Of a stretch of DNA of 64,000 bases, positions 13,954 through 34,790 are shown in pieces (positions within the stretch are counted from its first letter, which is position 1; each line of letters opens with the position of its first letter). Source of the stretch: Leptospirales bacterium (GTDB lineage: Bacteria > Spirochaetota > Leptospiria > Leptospirales > Leptonemataceae); the NCBI GenBank assembly GCA_019694655.1, contig JAIBBN010000002.1:248001-312000 (forward strand). Reading direction: 5' to 3'. The notes beneath the pieces were generated by a model. It was not told the DNA's origin. It did not search any database and saw nothing but the letters and a program-made list of their open reading frames with translations. The translations under genes were made by a program, and so were the position numbers.

Positions 13954-14022
13954 TGCGCGGTTGCGCAGCACGCGTCCAGTCAAAACCCTGATTGACCTGT
14001 CTGCCTGGAGAACAGACCTGTC
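13954..14022. promoter_or_regulatory. Repeats in divergent control region before lolC-type gene
   Basis: The gap between the leftward membrane protein (start 13933) and the rightward permease (start 14057) holds an inverted repeat CTGCGC-GGTT-GCGCAG (13954-13969) and a direct repeat GACCTGTC at 13994-14001 and 14015-14022, 21 bases apart (two helical turns). Such spacing suits a dimeric regulator, but no convincing -35/-10 pair stands out and no regulator gene is adjacent. Confidence 0.35.
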
Positions 14023-14056
14023 CGGGATCGCCGGTCGCAACCGGCGTCTATTCGGC

Positions 14057-15394
14057 ATGCTCCCACGCAAAAATTTTCTGGAATTGTTTATCGCCTGGCG
14101 CTACCTGCGAGGCCAGGGACGAACCGTCATCTTCAACCTCGGCGCCAGGCTTTCGCTGATCTTCATGGCCTCCATGGTGTTTTTGATGGTCATTGTGCTT
14201 TGCGTCTTCACCGGATTTCAGAAGGAAGTGCAGAACACGCTCTGGAGTTCCGGCTACCACATCATTGTAAGCTCAGAACCGGCCGGCGCGCCGCTGCGCG
14301 ATTACCGCAAGCTGCTTGAGGCGATCCAGAAAGATCCGCTGGCCGCTCCGCGTATTCGTAGTGTCTTCCCAAGCATTCAACTCAACGGACTGCTCGAAGT
14401 ACAGAATCGCTACGAGGGAAAAGCGGTACGCGCAATCCCGGTCGCCGATGCCGATCTGAAACGCGGCGTTCTGCCGGATTTTCCGCGCTTGGTACACAGC
14501 AATCGGCAGCTGCTGGAGCGCTTGAATTCCGGGAACTATGTGATCGTCGGCCGAGAAATGGCGCGCTACTTTGGCTGGAGCCTGGGCAGCCGCATTCGAT
14601 TGCTGGTTCCGCAAGGCGGCGTACTGACCCGCGGCATTCAGGTTCGCGAAGAGGAATTCGTCATCGCTGGTTTGTTCCGCACCGGGTACTATGAGTTCGA
14701 TTTGAATTTGATATTCATGTCGCTGGCAACCGCCCAACGAACGCTGGGCCTGGGCGATGCGTCTACTGAGGTAATCGTCCAGCTGCGCGACCTCTCTCAC
14801 CTGGATCTGGTAGAACAACGCGTTCGCAACAGCCTGCCGGGCTCCGCCTATACGTATTATGCGGTGCGAACATTGCGCCAGGAAAAGGGCAACTTTCTGG
14901 CCGCCTTGCAGCTGGAAAAGACCATGATGCTGGTCATCTTGAGTCTGCTGATTTTTGCAGGCGCTTTTGGCATCTGGGTCACTGTACACATGCTGGTAAA
15001 ATCCAAGGCGCGCAGCATCGGCATGTTGCGCGCTATGGGCATGCCGTCCTCCTCAATCATCGCTATCTTTACCGCCCATTCGATGTGGATCGGATTTCTG
15101 GCGGCGGCCATCGGCGGGTCGCTGGGATTGTTCATGGCCTCCCGTCTGGAGTCGGCATTGCAGCTGATTGAAGATCTCTACAACGCTTCCTGCAGCCGGA
15201 TGTTTGGGTCCTGTGAACCGCTGCAATTGATTCCCAAACATATCTACTATTTTGATCACCTTCCGGTATCAGCCGATGTGACTATCGCCTTTGGCGTCTG
15301 CCTGGCGACTATGATCTTAAGCGGCTTGGCCGGCTATTTCCCATCGCTGGTAGCAGCGCGAATAGATCCGGTGAAAACGATTCGGGCGGAGTAG
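14057..15394 (+). CDS. LolC/E-type lipoprotein-releasing ABC permease
   Basis: Inner-membrane permease of the FtsX/MacB superfamily (about 445 aa). It has an N-terminal helix preceded by the family-like FIAWRYLRGQGR, a large periplasmic domain (about 60-305), three C-terminal helices and a closing SLVAARIDPVKTIRAE, very like the LolC/LolE ending. With the ATPase that follows it would release lipoproteins from the inner membrane to a carrier. I started it at ATG 14057 since that aligns with LolC; an upstream in-frame reading lacks similarity. Only one permease gene is present, so the complex may be a homodimer (LolF-like) or a second permease is elsewhere. Confidence 0.85.
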   Translation: MLPRKNFLELFIAWRYLRGQGRTVIFNLGARLSLIFMASMVFLMVIVLCVFTGFQKEVQNTLWSSGYHIIVSSEPAGAPLRDYRKLLEAIQKDPLAAPRIRSVFPSIQLNGLLEVQNRYEGKAVRAIPVADADLKRGVLPDFPRLVHSNRQLLERLNSGNYVIVGREMARYFGWSLGSRIRLLVPQGGVLTRGIQVREEEFVIAGLFRTGYYEFDLNLIFMSLATAQRTLGLGDASTEVIVQLRDLSHLDLVEQRVRNSLPGSAYTYYAVRTLRQEKGNFLAALQLEKTMMLVILSLLIFAGAFGIWVTVHMLVKSKARSIGMLRAMGMPSSSIIAIFTAHSMWIGFLAAAIGGSLGLFMASRLESALQLIEDLYNASCSRMFGSCEPLQLIPKHIYYFDHLPVSADVTIAFGVCLATMILSGLAGYFPSLVAARIDPVKTIRAE

Positions 15395-15399
15395 GGTTG

Positions 15400-16083
15400 A
15401 TGCAGCACGCCATTGAAATTAAGGGCCTGGTCAAAGAGTACCGCGGTGAAAGCGAAACGATTACCGTGCTGAACGGCCTCGATTTGAGCATTGCCGATCG
15501 TAGCATCGCCTCTGTGGAAGGCGCAAGCGGCGAGGGGAAGAGCACGCTACTCAACATACTTGGCGCCATCGATCACGCCAGCGGCGGTAGCGTTCGTATC
15601 TTTGGCCAGGAGCTGCGCGAGCTTGGCGAGCGAGAAAAGGAGCGCTTTCGCGCCGAAACGGTTGGCCTGATCTTTCAGCACCACTACCTGCTTCCGGACT
15701 TTACGGTACTGGAAAATGCAATGATGCCGCTACTCATCCGTCGCTCTTCGGCGGTCGATGCAAAGCGCGAGGCGCAACGCGCTCTGGAATTGGTCGGACT
15801 TGCTCATCGCTTGAACCATTTTCCAAATCAAATCTCTGGCGGCGAGATGGCCAGGGCCGGCGTAGCGCGCGCACTGGTGGGCGGAAAGAAACTGATCCTG
15901 GCTGATGAGCCAACCGGCAACCTGGATCATGGCAATTCGGCGAAGTTGCAAAATCTGCTCTGGCAACTTCAAGAAGAAATGGGATTCACTTTGTTGATTG
16001 TGACCCATGACCAGGAATTGGCATCCCATGTTCCCCTGCGACACCGACTGGCCGATGGCATGATTCGCCCTTTTGGAAATTGA
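15400..16083 (+). CDS. lolD: LolD-type ABC transporter ATPase
   Basis: About 227 residues: Walker A GASGEGKST near 45, Q-loop FQHHYLLPDFT, signature ISGGEMARAGVARAL (Glu-Met in place of the usual Gln-Gln), Walker B LILADEPTGNLD and H-loop VTHD. The FtsX/LolD subfamily is shown by HYLLPDFTVLEN and DEPTGNLD. It follows the permease by 5 bases (TTG-ATG at 15397-15400) and is followed 6 bases later by the McsA-McsB-like gene, so lipoprotein export and protein quality control seem to share a transcript. Confidence 0.88.
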   Translation: MQHAIEIKGLVKEYRGESETITVLNGLDLSIADRSIASVEGASGEGKSTLLNILGAIDHASGGSVRIFGQELRELGEREKERFRAETVGLIFQHHYLLPDFTVLENAMMPLLIRRSSAVDAKREAQRALELVGLAHRLNHFPNQISGGEMARAGVARALVGGKKLILADEPTGNLDHGNSAKLQNLLWQLQEEMGFTLLIVTHDQELASHVPLRHRLADGMIRPFGN

Positions 16084-16089
16084 GGAGCA

Positions 16090-17160
16090 GTGTACTGCGA
16101 ACGCTGCGGCGCCGAAATTCACGTCCATTTGCTGACGCCCGATGCCAGCGGCTGGAGCGCTGGCGGCTATTGTCCGGACTGCGCCGAACTTCAGGTATCC
16201 TCCGACCGTTGCCGTCATTGTCAGTGGAGCTTTGGCCTCTTTCGTAAGACGGGTCAGCTGGGTTGCGAACACTGTTATCAAAGCTTTGCGGCGCGCCTGT
16301 CCCCGATGTTGGAGGACTATCTGGGTGCGCCGGCAGCTGCCAGAGCAGGAAAAGCGCCGTCGGCGCCGGGCCTGGCCAGAGCGCGCAGCCAGGAGATTCG
16401 TGAAGCCCTGCTGGTGCAAGACAGCGCGCATCTGCCCTGGCGCGCCGATGAGCCCGGCGACAGCGCCGGGTCCTCCCTGACCAAGGACAAAGGGCGACAG
16501 CGACTTGATGAAGAGATCTGCCCGGGCAGCGTTCGGCTGAGAGTTGCGCGAAATCTTCGAGGCGTGCCATACTGGCGCCGATTGAACCCTGCGCAGAGGG
16601 AGACACTGAGCGACATGTTACTTGCGCCTGGGGCTGCCGCCGCCCAATTCATATTCGCGCAATCTCCCCATGCTGCCTGGCGGCGCCAACGACGGAGCTT
16701 CGGCTGCGACCGGGCTGCCCTGATTGCAGGCGATGAGGATCATTTGCGGGCCGTCTGGCAATCCAATGCCGGCCTATCCTGGCTCCAACTGGAAGCGTGG
16801 ATTAGTGCGACTCTGGAGCAATGCTTGGAGCTGGATCGCTTGCTGGAATGGCAGTTCGAGCCGGGTCTTGGATTTCTGTGCGCCTGCCCCGCAAATAGCG
16901 GTTCGGGCATGCGTTGCTCTATTCGTTTGCATATTGCCGGACTGCAGGCCAGCGGCGGCTGGGAGACCTGGCGGGACCAATTGGGCTCGATCGGTTGCGA
17001 ATTACGCTGGTCCGGCGGCGAAGGCTCGCCGCCAGGCGACTGGCTGGACCTGTCCTGGCGACGATGGCCAGGAACCGTTACAATTCAGGCGGCCCTGACG
17101 CAGCTCTTGTATTTGGCGCGCCGTTTGCATGCTGCAGAAATCGCCTGCCAGGCCAGGTAA
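16090..17160 (+). CDS. McsA-McsB fusion: zinc-finger plus protein-arginine kinase-like domain
   Basis: 356 residues joining two parts that are normally separate proteins. Residues 1-79 match McsA: four CxxC pairs (3/6, 28/31, 41/44, 59/62) and TGQLGCEHCYQSF. Residues 147-350 match the McsB phosphagen-kinase fold: SVRLRVARN (147-155), QSPH (191-194), GDEDHLR (214-220), GFLCACPANSGSGMRCS (261-277) and LRWSGGEGS (305-313). By comparison with arginine kinases, the phosphate-binding arginines (149, 151, 220, 275, 306), catalytic Glu216 and the CPxN cysteine (266) are kept. The last 90-100 residues of McsB, which carry its phospho-arginine sensing site, are absent, as is McsA's UVR motif. The GTG start has GAGGAG only 2 bases away; the start is supported by the McsA-like MYCERCG. 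clpC follows. Confidence 0.8.
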   Translation: MYCERCGAEIHVHLLTPDASGWSAGGYCPDCAELQVSSDRCRHCQWSFGLFRKTGQLGCEHCYQSFAARLSPMLEDYLGAPAAARAGKAPSAPGLARARSQEIREALLVQDSAHLPWRADEPGDSAGSSLTKDKGRQRLDEEICPGSVRLRVARNLRGVPYWRRLNPAQRETLSDMLLAPGAAAAQFIFAQSPHAAWRRQRRSFGCDRAALIAGDEDHLRAVWQSNAGLSWLQLEAWISATLEQCLELDRLLEWQFEPGLGFLCACPANSGSGMRCSIRLHIAGLQASGGWETWRDQLGSIGCELRWSGGEGSPPGDWLDLSWRRWPGTVTIQAALTQLLYLARRLHAAEIACQAR

Positions 17161-17270
17161 GTAGCGCTGCACGCCGACACTAGAGATTGGGGCGCAGCAG
17201 CAGGCCAGCTCGGGAAAAGATCGTGACAGCTTTGCCTGCGCTGGTTTTCCTGTGTCGAGTCGCAGTAGGG

Positions 17271-17386: not shown

Positions 17387-19999
17387 ATGTTTGATTTCAC
17401 CAAGAGAGCGAAGCGGGTGATCAACGAGTACGCCCAGCAAGAAGCCAAGCGCCTTGGCCACGACATGATCGGACCGGAGCATATCCTGCTTGGCCTGTTG
17501 CGTGAGGAGGACTCGGTTGCGATCAAGATTCTGAAAAACCTGAATATCGACCTTGGCGAATTGAAAAAAGAAGTCGAACGTCGATCCAAACAGGGCGGCA
17601 GCACGCTGCTAATCGATATATCACCCAATCCGGACAAGTACCAGAAGATCATTGATTACTCCAAAGAAGAAGCAAAGCGCCTCAAGCATAACTACGTAGG
17701 CACGGAGCACATCCTGCTTGCGTTGTTGCGCGACAACAACAACGTAGCTGGCGCGGCGCTTGCTAACTTCAGCGTTAACTATTCGGTCATCAAAGGCGAA
17801 ATCCTGCGCATACTGGGCGTGGCAACCTCCGGCGCCGCCAGCTCCAGCCGGCAGCAAAGCCAGGAGAAATCGCGCACGCCAACCCTCGACGAATTTGCAC
17901 GAGACCTCACGCAACTGGCTCGCGACAAGAAGCTGGACCCTGTGATCGGACGCGATGCGGAGATCCAGCGGCTGATTCAAGTGCTGTGTCGCAAGACCAA
18001 GAACAATCCCGTCCTGATCGGCGAAGCTGGCGTCGGGAAGACTGCCATTGTAGAAGGCCTGGCCGAGCGGATCGTCAGCCACCAAACGCCGGATATCCTT
18101 TTTGAAAAGCGCGTCATTGCTCTGGATCTTGCCAGCCTGGTGGCCGGCACCAAGTACCGCGGTGAATTTGAAGATCGCCTGAAAAAGATCATGCGAGAGA
18201 TTCAGAATTCCACCAACATCATTGTGTTCATCGATGAATTGCATACCTTGATTGGCGCCGGCGCCGCCGAGGGCGCCATCGATGCGGCCAACATGCTGAA
18301 GCCCGCGCTGGCTCGCGGCGAGATCCAGTGCATTGGCGCCACGACGCTCAATGAATTTCGCAAGTACATTGAAAAAGATTCGGCGCTGGAACGTCGCTTT
18401 CAATCGATCCTTGTAAAAGAGCCGTCAATGGACGATACCATTTTAATATTGAAAGGTTTGAAAAGGGCCTTCGAGACGCACCACAAGGTCAGCTACTCCG
18501 ACGAATCGCTGGAGCTTGCCGTTAAACTTTCAGAACGCTACATCAATGATCGCTACCTGCCGGACAAGGCTATCGATGTGATCGACGAAGCGGGCAGCCG
18601 CGCCCGACTGCAGAATTCTTCACGGCCCGAGGAAATCGTCACTCTGGAGGAGGAAATCAAAGACCTCGTCCAGAAAAAAGATGATATGGTCAAGGCGCAG
18701 GAGTATGAAAAGGCTGCGCAAATCCGCGACGAAATCAACGCGCGCAAAGAAGTACTGGAAGAGAAAATCAGTCAGTGGCAGGAGAAAATCGCCGATTACT
18801 CCGTGGCGATCAGCTCGGAAGACATCTTTGCCGTACTGAGTCTCTGGACTGGAATTCCGCTGGAGAAAATCGAAGAAGGCGAAGCCCAGAAGCTGTTGCG
18901 TATGGAGCAGGAACTCGGGCGCCGAGTCGTCGGCCAGGTGGAAGCCGTTACGCAGGTCAGCCGCGCGGTGCGTCGTTCACGGACTGGCTTCAAGGACCCC
19001 AAGAAGCCTTCGGGCAGCTTTATCTTTCTGGGGCCTACTGGCGTGGGCAAGACTGAGCTGGCTCGCGCCCTGGCGGAATTTCTTTTTGGCGACGAGAAGA
19101 ACCTTTTTCGCCTCGATATGTCCGAGTATATGGAGCCCCATTCGGTGTCCAAGTTGATTGGTTCGCCCCCGGGCTACGTGGGCTACGACGATGCCGGACA
19201 GCTCTCCGAGTTTATTCGCCGCCGCCCTTACTCGGTCGTACTCTTTGATGAAGTAGAGAAGGCCCATCCCGACGTATTCAATCTGCTCTTGCAGATTCTG
19301 GACGAGGGGACGTTGACCGACACCCACGGTCGCAAGGTTGACTTTCGCGAAACAATCGTAATATTGACCTCCAACCTGGGCGCCCGTGAAATGCAGCGCG
19401 GCGGCAAGCTTGGCTTTGCCGAAAGTTCGGACCGCAGAGAGGAATTCAAGAAGGACAAACTGCTTGATGAGCTCAAGAAGCACTTCAATCCGGAATTTCT
19501 GAATCGAATCGACGAGGTGATTACCTTCCACACGCTAACGCGCGAAGACATTCGCAAGATCATCGATATCATGGCGGCGCGTATGAATCGCCACCTCGTC
19601 GAGAAAAAGGTTCAGGTGCTGCTCGACAACGAGGCCAGCGACCTGATCGCCGAAATGGGCTACGACGAGAAGTTTGGCGCCCGGCCCTTGCGTCGCACGC
19701 TGCAACGCGAGCTGGAAGACTATATGGCCAATCGAATGCTGGAGGGCGCCTACAAGGACCCTACCGAGATTCTGGTCGGATGCAATAAGGACGACGCTGG
19801 CAAACGCAGCTTGCGCTATGAAGAGCGTTTCTGGCCCGGTTATGAAACGTTGCGCAAGGAGCGCGAGGCTGAAATCCAGCGCAAACATGAGGAACTGAAT
19901 CGCAAGAATGCGCCTCCGGCTGCCTCTGCGGGCGCCAGCGAGGATAAGGAGACGGATCCCAATCCTTCCAGACCGGCAAACACCGGACAGGTAGGCTGA
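17387..19999 (+). CDS. clpC: ATP-dependent Clp protease ATPase ClpC
   Basis: Hsp100 unfoldase that feeds ClpP. 870 residues: paired Clp N repeats (about 1-145) with [10 protein letters not shown] and [13 protein letters not shown]-1 with GEAGVGKT, a short middle domain containing a UVR-type segment ([15 protein letters not shown]), AAA-2 with GPTGVGKT, and a C-terminal tail disordered after about 810. The short middle domain separates it from ClpB. The two glutamates in the N-repeat motifs correspond to those reported to bind phospho-arginine in Bacillus ClpC, which fits the arginine kinase-like gene directly upstream. Start at MFDFTKRA with GGAG 8 bases upstream; the longer reading through the leader is not ClpC-like. 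No clpP is in the window. Confidence 0.96.
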
Positions 20000-29739: not shown

Positions 29740-29766
29740 TTAGCAATCGTAAGGGTCGACTGCCAA
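29740..29766 (+). promoter_or_regulatory. CIRCE-like HrcA operator
   Basis: TTAGCAATC, nine bases, GACTGCCAA. Compared with the CIRCE consensus TTAGCACTC-N9-GAGTGCTAA, the left arm matches 8 of 9 and the right arm 7 of 9, with the exact 9-base spacing. It lies 45 bases before hrcA and just after the candidate promoter, as expected for autoregulation of hrcA-grpE-dnaK-dnaJ. Confidence 0.75.
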
Positions 29767-29810
29767 AATTGGAAACTGGAGCCGAAAGAAAGACTCGCCG
29801 ACGCAGGGAT

Positions 29811-30866
29811 ATGTCGCCTGGCATGGACCACCAGCAGGAAATCAGCCCCCGTCAGGCTGAGATTTTAAAGCTGGTGGTGGAAGGCTATATCCAGCACTCG
29901 ACGCCTATTTCCAGCCTGTTTCTAACCGAGAACTATCAGATTGGGCTGTCTTCGGCCTCCATTCGCTCGATCTTTGTCGACCTCGAGGGGAAAGGTTACC
30001 TCTACTCACCGCACCGCAGCTCCGGCCGGATCCCCACCGAAAAGGGGTATCGTCACTATGTCGCCCACCTGCCGCCTGCTCGCGTTCTGCTGGAAGAAGA
30101 TCAGCGGGTCATTCAATCGGAATATCTGAAACGTGATTTTCGGATCAATGAGGTCCTGGATGTGAGCAGTCGCATCCTGGCTATGCTGACGAACTATGCG
30201 GCCGTGGTGATCGCCCCGGAGCCGGAGAAGGCTGCCCTCAAGCATATTGAGCTGATTGATATGGGCGGCGATGAGGTGCTGGTCATACTGGTTACGCGCT
30301 CCGGCGCCGTTTTTTCGCGAACGGTCTTTCTGGAATCGCGCATTCCGCCGGATACAATCCGCGCCATTTCACGCAGCCTGAACGAACGGTTCAAGGGGAT
30401 GGATCTGGCAGAGGTGCGATTGCAACTGAAGCACGATGCGCAGCAACCGCCCGCCCCTGGCGTTTTCCTGCCGATGATTGCGCGTACCATTGCCGAGCAT
30501 TTTGATTCCGTCAAAGGCGCCGAAGAAGTCTACACCGCCGGGATTGAAAGTTTATTCAATAGACTGGCGCAAGAAGAGAGCGGCCGAGCCCGGGATCTTG
30601 GCGCCCTCTTTGAATCGCCAGATTTTGTGCGCGGGATTTTCAAACGCACCATTGATCTGGATGATATGGACGTCTTGATTGAGGGCGACCATGATCAGCG
30701 CTTGCAGGGCCTCTCCATAGTATCCGCCAGCTATAAGATGGGCGAGCGACGGATTGGCGCGCTGGGAGTTGTTGGCCCCAATCGCATGGATTACGTTCGC
30801 GTTCTAAGTATTGTTGAGTATTTGCGCAGAATCATGTCGAACATGATTACTCGATTGAGCAATTGA
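29811..30866 (+). CDS. hrcA: Heat-inducible transcription repressor HrcA
   Basis: Repressor of the heat-shock operon that binds CIRCE. About 351 residues from ATG 29811 (a second ATG at 29823 is possible). N-terminal winged helix: ISPRQAEILKLVVEGYIQ and the recognition segment SASIRSIFVDLEGKGYLYSPHRSSGRIPTEKGYRHYV. The C-terminal GAF-like domain ends with GERRIGALGVVGPNRMDYVRVLSIVEYL, typical of HrcA. The CIRCE-like operator 45 bases upstream supports autoregulation. grpE starts 16 bases after the stop. Confidence 0.95.
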   Translation: MSPGMDHQQEISPRQAEILKLVVEGYIQHSTPISSLFLTENYQIGLSSASIRSIFVDLEGKGYLYSPHRSSGRIPTEKGYRHYVAHLPPARVLLEEDQRVIQSEYLKRDFRINEVLDVSSRILAMLTNYAAVVIAPEPEKAALKHIELIDMGGDEVLVILVTRSGAVFSRTVFLESRIPPDTIRAISRSLNERFKGMDLAEVRLQLKHDAQQPPAPGVFLPMIARTIAEHFDSVKGAEEVYTAGIESLFNRLAQEESGRARDLGALFESPDFVRGIFKRTIDLDDMDVLIEGDHDQRLQGLSIVSASYKMGERRIGALGVVGPNRMDYVRVLSIVEYLRRIMSNMITRLSN

Positions 30867-30882
30867 AATGGGAGGAAGGGCA

Positions 30883-31527
30883 GTGGCTGAATCCGAACAA
30901 AGTTCCGACCAGAATGTTCCGCCCGGAGTCGAGGTGGCGGCCGGCGACGGTTTTCCTGAGCAGCGGCAACAGGGCCAGCAAGGCGACGCCGAGCAGGCAA
31001 GCGGCGCTGATGCGGGATTACTGAGTCGCCTGGCGGCGGCAGAGCAGGAAATCCAGGAACTCAAAGAGAACTGGCAGCGAGAGCGAGCTGATTTTTCCAA
31101 TTTTCGAAAGCGCACGATGCAGGAGCGGGCTCGCGTCAGGGCTGAGGCCTCTGCCGCTTTTGCTCAGGATCTCTTCGAGCCTATGGACAATCTGGAGCGC
31201 ACCCTGGCAGCGCCGGCCGAATCAGACGAAACGCGCAGTTTCAAGACTGGCGTGGAGATGATTCGCGTCAGTTTGTTGCAGGCCTTTGACCGTCAGAAGA
31301 TACGGATGCTCCGTCCCGAAGGCCAGGCCTTTGATCCTTTCACAATGGAAGCGATTGCCTCACAGGACAGCGAAGAAGTCAGCGTCGACACGGTGGTGGA
31401 AGTCTACCAGCCTGGATATCAAATTGAGCAGGAAAATGGCGAACGGCAAACGCTGCGACCGGCGCGCGTCCGGGTGGCGCGCGCGCGTAACGCAGCGACC
31501 AATTCTGCTGGCGAAACCGCAAACTGA
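30883..31527 (+). CDS. grpE: Nucleotide exchange factor GrpE
   Basis: Releases ADP from DnaK. About 214 residues from GTG 30883, chosen because GGAGG lies 7 bases upstream; an ATG at 30868 has no ribosome site. An acidic Q-rich disordered start (about 1-45) is followed by the long dimer helix (AEQEIQELKENWQRERADFSNFRKRTMQE) and the beta-domain (GQAFDPFTMEAIASQDSE, VVEVYQPGYQIEQ, RPARVRVA). Second gene of the hrcA operon. Confidence 0.95.
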   Translation: MAESEQSSDQNVPPGVEVAAGDGFPEQRQQGQQGDAEQASGADAGLLSRLAAAEQEIQELKENWQRERADFSNFRKRTMQERARVRAEASAAFAQDLFEPMDNLERTLAAPAESDETRSFKTGVEMIRVSLLQAFDRQKIRMLRPEGQAFDPFTMEAIASQDSEEVSVDTVVEVYQPGYQIEQENGERQTLRPARVRVARARNAATNSAGETAN

Positions 31528-31659
31528 GGGTCGATAGGTGCAGACGAAACTATATTGGACTAAAGAAAGTGGAGCGCCGCCACGGCGGCCGAATACGGAA
31601 AAATTGGCATAGGAATTTCAAACAGCACAGGCATTGCGAGTAACAGCGGGGATAGTAAA
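31528..31659 (+). other. Leader between grpE and dnaK with a GC hairpin
   Basis: 132 bases without coding signal. GCCGCC (31576-31581) and GGCGGC (31584-31589) form a hairpin, and GGGGA 7 bases before the dnaK ATG is the ribosome site. A clear second promoter or CIRCE is not seen. The hairpin could be an mRNA processing or stabilising element that raises dnaK over grpE. Confidence 0.4.
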
Positions 31660-33600
31660 ATGGCAAAAGAGAAAATCATAGGAATTGATCTTGGAACTAC
31701 CAACTCCTGCGTCGCCGTCATGGAAGGCGGGGAACCGGTGGTCATCCAGAATGCCGAGGGCGCGAGAACTACGCCGTCAATCGTTGGATTCGCGGCGGAG
31801 GATTCCAAGCTTGTGGGCCAGATTGCCAAAAACCAGGCAATCACCAACCCGGGCAACACGGTGAGGTCGATCAAGCGCTTCATGGGCAGACGCTTTTCCG
31901 AGGTGCAGGAGGAGCTGAAGCGCTCGTCCTACAAGATTGTGCGTTCCGGTCAGGACGGCATCAAGGTAGAAAGCGACTTCGGCGCTTACACTGCCCAAGA
32001 GGTCTCGGCGATCATTTTGCAAAAGATGAAGCAAACGGCTGAGGACTACCTGGGCCACAAGGTGACCCGGGCAGTGATTACAGTACCGGCCTACTTCAAC
32101 GACGAACAGCGCCAGGCAACCAAAGACGCCGGGCGCATCGCCGGGCTGGAAGTCGAGCGAATCATCAACGAGCCTACGGCTGCAGCGCTGGCTTACGGAC
32201 TGGACCGCAAGAACAAGAACATGAAGATTGCTGTCTACGACCTCGGCGGCGGCACTTTTGATGTAAGCATTCTGGAGCTGGGCGACGGCGTATTCGAGGT
32301 CAAGTCTACCAATGGCGATACGCATCTTGGCGGCGATGACTTTGACGAGGCAATCATTGATTGGATGACCGCGGAATTTAAGCGCGAGTCCGGCATCGAT
32401 ATCAGCAAAGATCGCATGGCTTTGCAACGACTCAAGGAGGCGGCAGAAAAGGCGAAGATTGAATTGTCCGGGACGATGCAAGCTCAAATCAATATACCTT
32501 TCATCACTGCCGAGAATGGGGTGCCCAAGCACCTGACCATGACGCTTACGCGATCAAAGTTCGATCAGCTCACCCAATCCCTGGTGGATCGGACGCGCAC
32601 GCCCTGCGAAAATGCGCTGCGCGACGCCAGTCTGAAGCCGGCCGAGATCGACGAGGTTATTCTGGTGGGAGGATCAACGCGCATCCCGGCAGTTCAGGAA
32701 CTGGTTAAGAAGATCTTTGCACGCGAACCGAATCGCTCGGTCAACCCGGATGAAGTCGTTGCAGTGGGTGCAGCAATCCAGGGCGGAGTGCTGGGCGGCG
32801 AGGTAACCGACGTTCTCCTGCTTGATGTGACGCCGCTTTCGCTGGGGATTGAAACCCTTGGCGGGGTCTTTACCAAGCTCATCGAACGTAATACCACGAT
32901 ACCGACGCGCAAGTCGCAGGTGTTTTCCACAGCCGCGGACAATCAAACGGCGGTATCAGTACATGTAATGCAGGGAGAGCGCGAAATGGCGCGCGACAAC
33001 CGCACTCTGGCCCGCTTCGACTTGCTGGGAATCCCGCCGGCGCCGCGCGGCATCCCCCAGATTGAAGTGGCCTTCGATATCGATGCCAACGGCATCGTCC
33101 ATGTTTCGGCAAAGGATCTGGGCACCGGCAAGGAACAGAAGATCCGTATCGAAACAACCAGCGGTCTCTCCGAGGAAGAAATTCAGCGCATGGTGAAGGA
33201 CGCTGAAGCCAACGAATCGCGCGATAAGGAGCTGCGCGAATCCGCGGAAGCGCGTAACGAAGCCGATAGCCTTGCCTATTCGCTGGAAAAGTCGCTGCAC
33301 GAAGCGGGCGATAAAGTCGCCGCGGCCGATCGCCAGAAGGCCGAGGAATTGATCAAGCGCACGCGAGATGCTCTGGATTCCAACGATCCTGCGCAGATCA
33401 AAGCGGCTCGCGATGAGATTCAAAGGGAGGCCATGGAACTTGGCCAGCGCATCTATGCGGCCGCAGCGCAAGGACAGGGAGCCGGGGCCGCCGGTCATGA
33501 CGGAAATGGGCAAGGCGGCGGACCAAACGCAGAGAACGCTGCAGAAGGCGAGAAAGTCGTCGATGCCGATTACACGGTCGTGGACGAGGAAAAGAAGTAA
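31660..33600 (+). CDS. dnaK: Chaperone DnaK (Hsp70)
   Basis: ATP-driven Hsp70. 646 residues, full length: [17 protein letters not shown] at the N-terminus, [35 protein letters not shown] and [11 protein letters not shown] of the ATPase domain, linker [18 protein letters not shown], substrate-binding domain, then a helical lid and a G/Q-rich tail ending in an acidic stretch ([12 protein letters not shown]) of the usual type. In the operon hrcA-grpE-dnaK-dnaJ. Nothing unusual seen. Confidence 0.98.
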
Positions 33601-33659
33601 GTTTGTCTTAAGTGTCCCGTCGGCTTTGGCCGGCGGGGCGCCGGTGGAGCAAGAAATCT

Positions 33660-34790
33660 ATGGCCGAACGCGATTACTATGAGGTGCTTGGTGTGGGCCG
33701 GCAGGCTTCAAAGGAAGAAGTCAAAAAGGCTTACAGACAATTGGCAATCAAGTACCATCCGGACAAGAATCGCGGTAACAAGGAAGCTGAAGAGAAATTC
33801 AAAGAAGCTACGGAAGCTTATGAAGTTCTCTCCGACGACGAAAAGCGCCGGGTCTACGATCAGTACGGCAAGGCGGGTCTGGGCGGCGCAGGCGGACCGG
33901 GCGGATTTGGCTACAAGGCCTATACCGATTTCTCCGATATCTTTGGCGATATTGGCGACATTTTCAGCGAGTTTTTTGGCGGCGGCGGCGGCTTTGCCGG
34001 CGGTCGCCGCGGCGGCGCACGGCGCGGCGCGGACTTGCGCTACAATCTGGAAATCAGCCTGGAAGATGCGGCCATCGGCAAAGAAGCGCGCATCGAGATT
34101 CCGCGGCTGGAAGGCTGCGAGGAGTGCGGCGGCAGCGGCGCGCGCAAGGGAAGTCAGGCGCAATCCTGCACTGTCTGCGGCGGCGCCGGACAGGTGCGGC
34201 GAACCCAGGGATTTTTTTCCGTAACCACCAGCTGCCCGCGCTGTCAGGGCCGCGGCGTCGTCATAGCCGATCCCTGCAGCGCATGTCGGGGGCAGGGCGT
34301 ATCCGAAAAACGACGTACATTGAATATCAAAATCCCTCCCGGCGTGGAATCGGGCAGCCGCTTGAAAGTAAGCGGAGAAGGAGAGGGCGGGCCGGGCGGA
34401 GGTCCGCGGGGCGATCTATATGTAGTCACACATATTCGACCCCATGAAATATTTGAGCGTCAGGGAAATGATCTGATTGTACAGGCAAACATTCCGCTTA
34501 CAGTCGGATTGCTGGGCGGCGAAATCGAAGCGCCAACCATTGAAGGGAAGCGAGTACGGATGAAAATCCCGGCCGGAACTGAAAGCGGACAGATCTTTCG
34601 GCTCAAGGGAAAAGGCATGCCCTACGTCGGCGGCTATGGCAAAGGCGACCAACATGTCGTTATCAGTCTCAAGCTTCCGCGTAACCTGAGTCGCAAAGCG
34701 CGCGATCTGGTGGCAGAATTGCAGAAAGAATTGAAAGAAGATGTTGAGGCGGACGCTGAGTACAGCCGCGTGACCGCCGGATTCAACTGA
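33660..34790 (+). CDS. dnaJ: Chaperone DnaJ (Hsp40)
   Basis: About 376 residues from ATG 33660. J-domain with YHPDKN (HPD motif), G/F-rich linker ([25 protein letters not shown]...), four zinc-binding CxxCxGxG repeats ([32 protein letters not shown]) and the C-terminal beta domains ([22 protein letters not shown]). Type I DnaJ. The upstream start reading adds 16 residues with no family similarity. It ends the heat-shock operon. Confidence 0.97.

Follow-up and report, generated by a model that had tools for sequence, protein, structure and literature searches.

Can the arginine-tagging kinase McsA–McsB be reduced to one polypeptide that has shed its sensor? In Gram-positive bacteria, McsA–McsB marks proteins for ClpC, with an activity believed to be controlled by dimerisation and phospho-arginine (pArg) sensing. 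The question is raised by one gene in the 64,000-nucleotide stretch of Leptospirales DNA analysed here (the window), in which a sequence-only reading had recognised a fused McsA–McsB. The gene occupies 16090–17160 (+ strand, as for its parts and its neighbouring genes below, in window coordinates) as a single open frame of 356 amino acids with a GTG start, stop codon included, and is defined by the open-reading-frame list, Pfam and NCBIfam matches and 20 aligned orthologs. It begins 7 bp past the lolD stop codon and ends 226 bp before the clpC start (17387). We propose that it probably encodes a single-chain protein arginine kinase, built from an McsA-type activator, a flexible linker and an McsB phosphotransferase domain, with the sensor lost.

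Profile comparisons agreed on the identity of both halves. NCBIfam models for McsB (4.1e-13) and McsA (4.1e-10, residues 36–92) matched the same protein, and McsB models were its sole NCBIfam kinase matches. The scores fell far under the equivalog cut-offs (for the McsB models, 49.2 bits against 385 and 38.5 against 500), which sets the protein apart from standard McsA and McsB. With hhalign, the N-terminal part aligned to columns 20–132 of the 197-column McsA profile (E = 1.1e-14) and the C-terminal part to columns 13–248 of the 358-column spirochaete McsB profile (E = 4e-25). The phosphagen kinase catalytic domain PF00217 was matched at residues 211–314 (1.8e-10; 41 bits against a curated cut-off of 22.4) and in 20 of 20 orthologs, and an hmmsearch of the PDB with the fused-family profile found 8wtc_A (5.6e-27, covering 7–238 of 243).

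The four CxxC pairs of the earlier reading (3/6, 28/31, 41/44 and 59/62) were confirmed at their positions in the chain. They form a McsA-like zinc finger 1 (C3, C6, C28 and C31; 16096–16182), which lies inside the hhalign match to McsA, and a zinc finger 2 (C41, C44, C59 and C62, spaced C-x2-C-x14-C-x2-C; 16210–16275), the putative activator module, which the NCBIfam McsA match covers. A variable, probably flexible linker without a UVR motif (residues 80–140; 16327–16509) then leads into an McsB-type phosphagen kinase domain (residues 141–356; 16510–17157) without a dimerisation/pArg-sensor domain. Taken together, the profile matches support an arrangement in which McsA zinc fingers and an McsB kinase domain are joined in one chain. 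They also bear on a reading in which the enzyme acts on free arginine, as a phosphagen kinase, or on another small guanidino compound instead of proteins: the catalytic domain matches metazoan arginine kinases as well as McsB. Such a substrate is scarcely credible, however, for a protein that carries McsA zinc fingers in place of the N-terminal substrate-specificity domain, finds its best NCBIfam matches in McsB and is encoded in a clpC operon.

The claim that the C-terminal part of McsB is missing, together with its pArg-sensing pocket, was borne out by two measures. The hhalign match stops at column 248, so that the last 110 McsB profile columns are absent, and the tail after R306 is 36–76 residues long in fused proteins (50 in the window protein), against 136–162 in stand-alone spirochaete McsB, ranges that leave out one contig-cut copy. 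In Staphylococcus aureus McsB, the phosphotransferase domain comprises residues 1–251 and the dimerisation domain residues 252–336 (PMC12467219); the pArg receptor site of Bacillus subtilis McsB, R337/D338, sits in the dimerisation domain (PMC8370763). On the question of whether a C-terminal domain is encoded elsewhere, the search covered the catalytic-domain model PF00217, which had one match in the genome. The absence of the McsA UVR motif likewise held, with no Pfam UVR match in 20 of 20 fused proteins from a library that did find UVR in the adjoining ClpC. A second McsA in the same genome was considered and rejected; the other matches to the McsA model NF053706 (ClpC and one protein of about 200 amino acids) cover the UVR part only and were therefore not counted as McsA. 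The truncation is thus genuine and common to the fused family. Separately, conserved proteins of about 200 amino acids with a C-terminal UVR motif matching the McsA profile were seen at four loci (L167:5221–5811, L171:6743–7354, L172:5591–6160 and L173:5634–6212); their start, MDLIEVxISDI, may relate them to bifunctional-nuclease (DUF151) proteins.

Does the remaining kinase domain look like a working enzyme? The five ATP-binding arginines, the glutamate pair E216/E311 and the reactive cysteine C266 are all present in the window protein, the residues named in the earlier reading at the positions it gave. R149 and R151, predicted ATP phosphate contacts in a VRLRVARN motif (16534–16542), do not vary among the 20 fused proteins, and neither do E216, D217, H218 and R220 in the DEDHLR motif (16732–16749), which supplies the putative catalytic glutamate and a further ATP contact. 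R275 and R306 (ATP contacts) and E311 (the second catalytic glutamate, in the lid loop) follow at 16912–17022. Among 17 orthologs from the gene's own family (f1), R149, R151, E216, R220 and R306 were kept in 17, R275 and E311 in 16 and C266 in 14, the other three copies carrying Ser or His at the last position. When the 211 kinase columns are ranked by conservation in these orthologs, the top 19 include seven of the eight key kinase residues (hypergeometric P about 1e-7). All 20 fused proteins (17 from f1 and 3 from the sister family, f2) keep zinc finger 2 without exception. Given that overall identity within f1 is only about 30%, the constancy of the catalytic residues and of finger 2 argues for a working enzyme in this family. 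The segment between R151 and E216 varies in length: relative to McsB, the window copy has about 25 residues fewer there, and in other lineages the segment is longer than in this copy.

The sister family looks different. Finger 1, kept in 15 of 17 f1 copies, is absent from all three aligned f2 proteins (L090, L095 and L096), in which R275 is replaced by Lys and E311 is lost (3 of 3); R306 is missing from two or three of them, depending on how the third is aligned. The expectation that all five arginines would survive alignment therefore stood in the gene's own family, where they are invariant or kept in 16 of 17, and failed for R275 and mostly for R306 in f2. These losses imply that activity may be gone in f2, so that some members of the fused family may not be active kinases. 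The f2 copies (L090, L095, L096 and L163) are short and degenerate, with finger 2 kept and finger 1 lost, and perhaps represent a non-catalytic adaptor.

A rival reading takes the fused protein in general for an adaptor or pseudokinase, which would use its McsA part and kinase fold to bind substrates and ClpC, with arginine phosphorylation lost or secondary. Besides the f2 losses and the C266 replacements in f1, this would fit the lack of a detectable YwlE-type P-loop, the fast evolution of the fused protein and the loss of the catalytic glutamate in many stand-alone spirochaete McsB sequences. In the single genome pair close enough to be measured, dN/dS was 0.08 for the fused gene and 0.01 for lolD and clpC, which indicates purifying selection, yet also an evolution much faster than that of the neighbouring genes. 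A pseudokinase would not, however, be expected to retain precisely those residues that f1 keeps far above chance, and we regard this explanation as unlikely, though not negligible, for the window protein.

The stand-alone McsB sequences form a comparison set of 50 rows, in which the catalytic glutamate is absent from 19, with the C-terminal domain kept, whereas fused proteins keep the glutamate in 20 of 20; the set is an automatic alignment of a non-random sample in which three genomes are counted twice and one of the 19 is contig-cut. Many of the stand-alone proteins (L100–L105, L107, L108, L110–L113 and L115–L118) lack the catalytic glutamate and several ATP-binding arginines, and most of the glutamate-less genes adjoin mcsA and clpC. 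These sequences raise the possibility that McsB pseudokinases are widespread in other Spirochaetota.

To place the fusion in its lineage, we followed the suggestion that it be sought in the rest of the order. It is present as one frame in 18 of 22 genomes of f1 and 4 of 8 genomes of f2, usually at the same place: of the 21 fused loci read, 19 have lolD as the gene just upstream and 17 have clpC as the gene just downstream. A sequencing error or an artificial joining of two genes, raised earlier as an alternative, was rejected, the same frame and the same C-terminal end being found in independent genomes; chance was dismissed likewise. When 393 Spirochaetota genomes were searched with the fused-family profile, none of the matches listed outside the order had one frame spanning fingers and kinase; the matches running across both were two genes split by a stop codon. 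A scan with a relative's protein found four named loci, in marine or uncultured metagenome-assembled genomes labelled Leptospiraceae or Spirochaetaceae, and the window protein itself, used as query against named genomes, matched nothing. In a kinase-domain tree, 20 of 20 aligned fused proteins fell on one side of a branch (support 92/86), and a single change suffices in 91% of the bootstrap trees, so that one fusion event is the simplest reading. The fusion has been lost again in genus g7, in which the gene is cleanly gone, clpC follows lolD at once and ClpC is retained (L165:2490–2669). In one further genome (L087:6555–7424) the fused gene still follows lolD, away from clpC, and the next gene encodes an FGGY carbohydrate kinase. 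No description of an McsA–McsB fusion was found in the literature searched, which has most subscription journals outside its coverage. We conclude that the fusion is an order-wide feature and represents a new, lineage-specific form of the McsA–McsB arginine kinase.

How such a protein might work is suggested by known structures. Two structures, as described in reviews, have the second zinc finger of McsA bound to the McsB kinase domain (PMC12467219, PMC12387690); in S. aureus, finger 2 contacts the McsB loop Y147–Y153, orients the catalytic Cys157 and raises activity, and McsA also blocks McsB self-oligomerisation. In PDB 8wtc, a chymotrypsin-trimmed B. subtilis McsB kinase domain (a 243-residue chain) was crystallised with McsA. 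B. subtilis McsA activates McsB by way of finger 2, and for this the kinase domain is enough. Because 8wtc comprises a kinase domain and McsA finger 2, the fused gene resembles a natural single-chain version of this minimal complex. The finger 2 cysteines are spaced exactly like Cys87/90/105/108 of S. aureus and Cys81/84/99/102 of B. subtilis, and alignment to 8gqd places loop 254–262 and C266 of the window protein (16849–16887) as the counterpart of the S. aureus loop and Cys157. The loop reads WQFEPGLGF, against a family consensus of WQxHPxFGF.

Given that finger 2 is invariant and that this loop and C266 match the known contact, we read the finger as a tethered activator in an enzyme from which dimerisation and pArg regulation have been removed. 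Finger 2 would be the essential one of the two McsA-type fingers, packing on the loop before C266 and holding the active site active, either in cis or by swapping between two paired chains. The fused kinase would then phosphorylate arginines of damaged proteins, and the pArg mark would be read by the N-domain of ClpC, encoded by the next gene, leading to ClpC(P) degradation. We infer protein-arginine phosphorylation, the substrate, the oligomeric state, constitutive activity, activation in cis and the lack of pArg feedback; the kinase activity and its release from feedback are hypotheses that we consider well founded. AlphaFold models built from five input sequences were of low confidence (mean pLDDT 54 and 58; below 50 at residues 70–136). 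In structure searches with these models by Foldseek and VIA, arginine kinases and McsB came out on top; with Z near 9 and TM under 0.5, the ranking is consistent with the sequence result, adds little to it and is no proof.

The genomic neighbourhood supplies further constraints. Upstream lie a LolC/E-like permease (13961–15394; FtsX, PF02687), in the same gene order in relatives, and a conserved LolD-like ABC ATPase (15397–16083; PF00005). Downstream, ClpC (17387–19999) has Clp_N, AAA, UVR and ClpB_D2 domains; we place its start at the ATG at 17387, the listed start at 17252 being mechanical. This ClpC keeps both pArg-pocket glutamates (equivalents of E32 and E106). The same glutamates occur in the ClpC of genus g7, which has no fused gene, and they are therefore not diagnostic and no proof of pArg reading. 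Free pArg activates ClpC by filling its N-domain pockets (PMC12583610), and this, with the conserved clpC linkage, would suit a kinase directed at ClpC itself or at a few regulators and not at damaged proteins generally. We consider so narrow a role very unlikely; PF05848 found no CtsR target in the genome, which is about 96% complete.

Likewise, no YwlE-type arginine phosphatase (with Thr in a CxGNTCR loop) was found in the genome. The low-molecular-weight phosphatase loops read in the order are CxGNICRS, with CIENSNRS in a second copy in the same genome, and an eraser of another type may be conceivable. No CIRCE heat-shock element was found at the fused-gene operon, and a promoter scan gave nothing near the gene. 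Elsewhere in the window, a CIRCE-like inverted repeat was observed at 29740–29766 (3 mismatches; 0.01 expected); the open reading frames that it shortly precedes (29769–34790) fit hrcA-grpE-dnaK-dnaJ in size and order, an assignment whose family check is the similarity of two of them to a relative.

A stricter version of the arginine-kinase reading is a minimal kinase switched on by its own finger, which would operate without dimerisation, an octamer cage, pArg feedback or a YwlE-type eraser. We put this forward tentatively, leaning slightly against it. More broadly, the points that speak against an arginine kinase are the missing dimerisation domain, given that full McsB activity in Firmicutes is reported to need a dimer or tetramer (PMC8370763, PMC12467219), the replaced C266, the f2 losses, the lack of a YwlE-type signature, the fast evolution, the poor AF2 models and the g7 clpC without a fused gene. 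If the stricter version is true, controls considered essential in Firmicutes are dispensable for the tagging pathway. A natural single chain reduced to the activating finger and the catalytic domain points to these two as the minimal working parts of McsA–McsB, and offers a compact enzyme on which any need for oligomerisation and feedback can be probed. It also extends candidate arginine phosphorylation to Gram-negative, Leptospirales-type bacteria, and could find use in pArg labelling as a tool encoded by a single gene.

Set beside known systems, the fused protein shares with the McsA–McsB of B. subtilis and S. aureus the finger 2 cysteine spacing, the catalytic residues and the clpC operon; it differs from that two-protein system in being one chain, in lacking the dimerisation/pArg-sensor domain, UVR and ctsR, and in its shorter R151–E216 segment. 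Like PDB 8wtc/8wtb, it combines a kinase domain without the dimerisation domain with McsA finger 2, although those are two-chain laboratory constructs and the fused protein is natural and covalent. The stand-alone mcsA-mcsB-clpC loci of other Spirochaetota (for example, L099 and L114) hold the same three functions in the same order beside clpC, but there two genes are involved and McsB keeps its C-terminal domain, while many copies lack catalytic residues, a pattern opposite to that of the fused form. With metazoan arginine kinase it shares the catalytic domain and five phosphate-binding arginines; where that enzyme has an N-terminal guanidino-substrate domain, the fused protein has zinc fingers instead.
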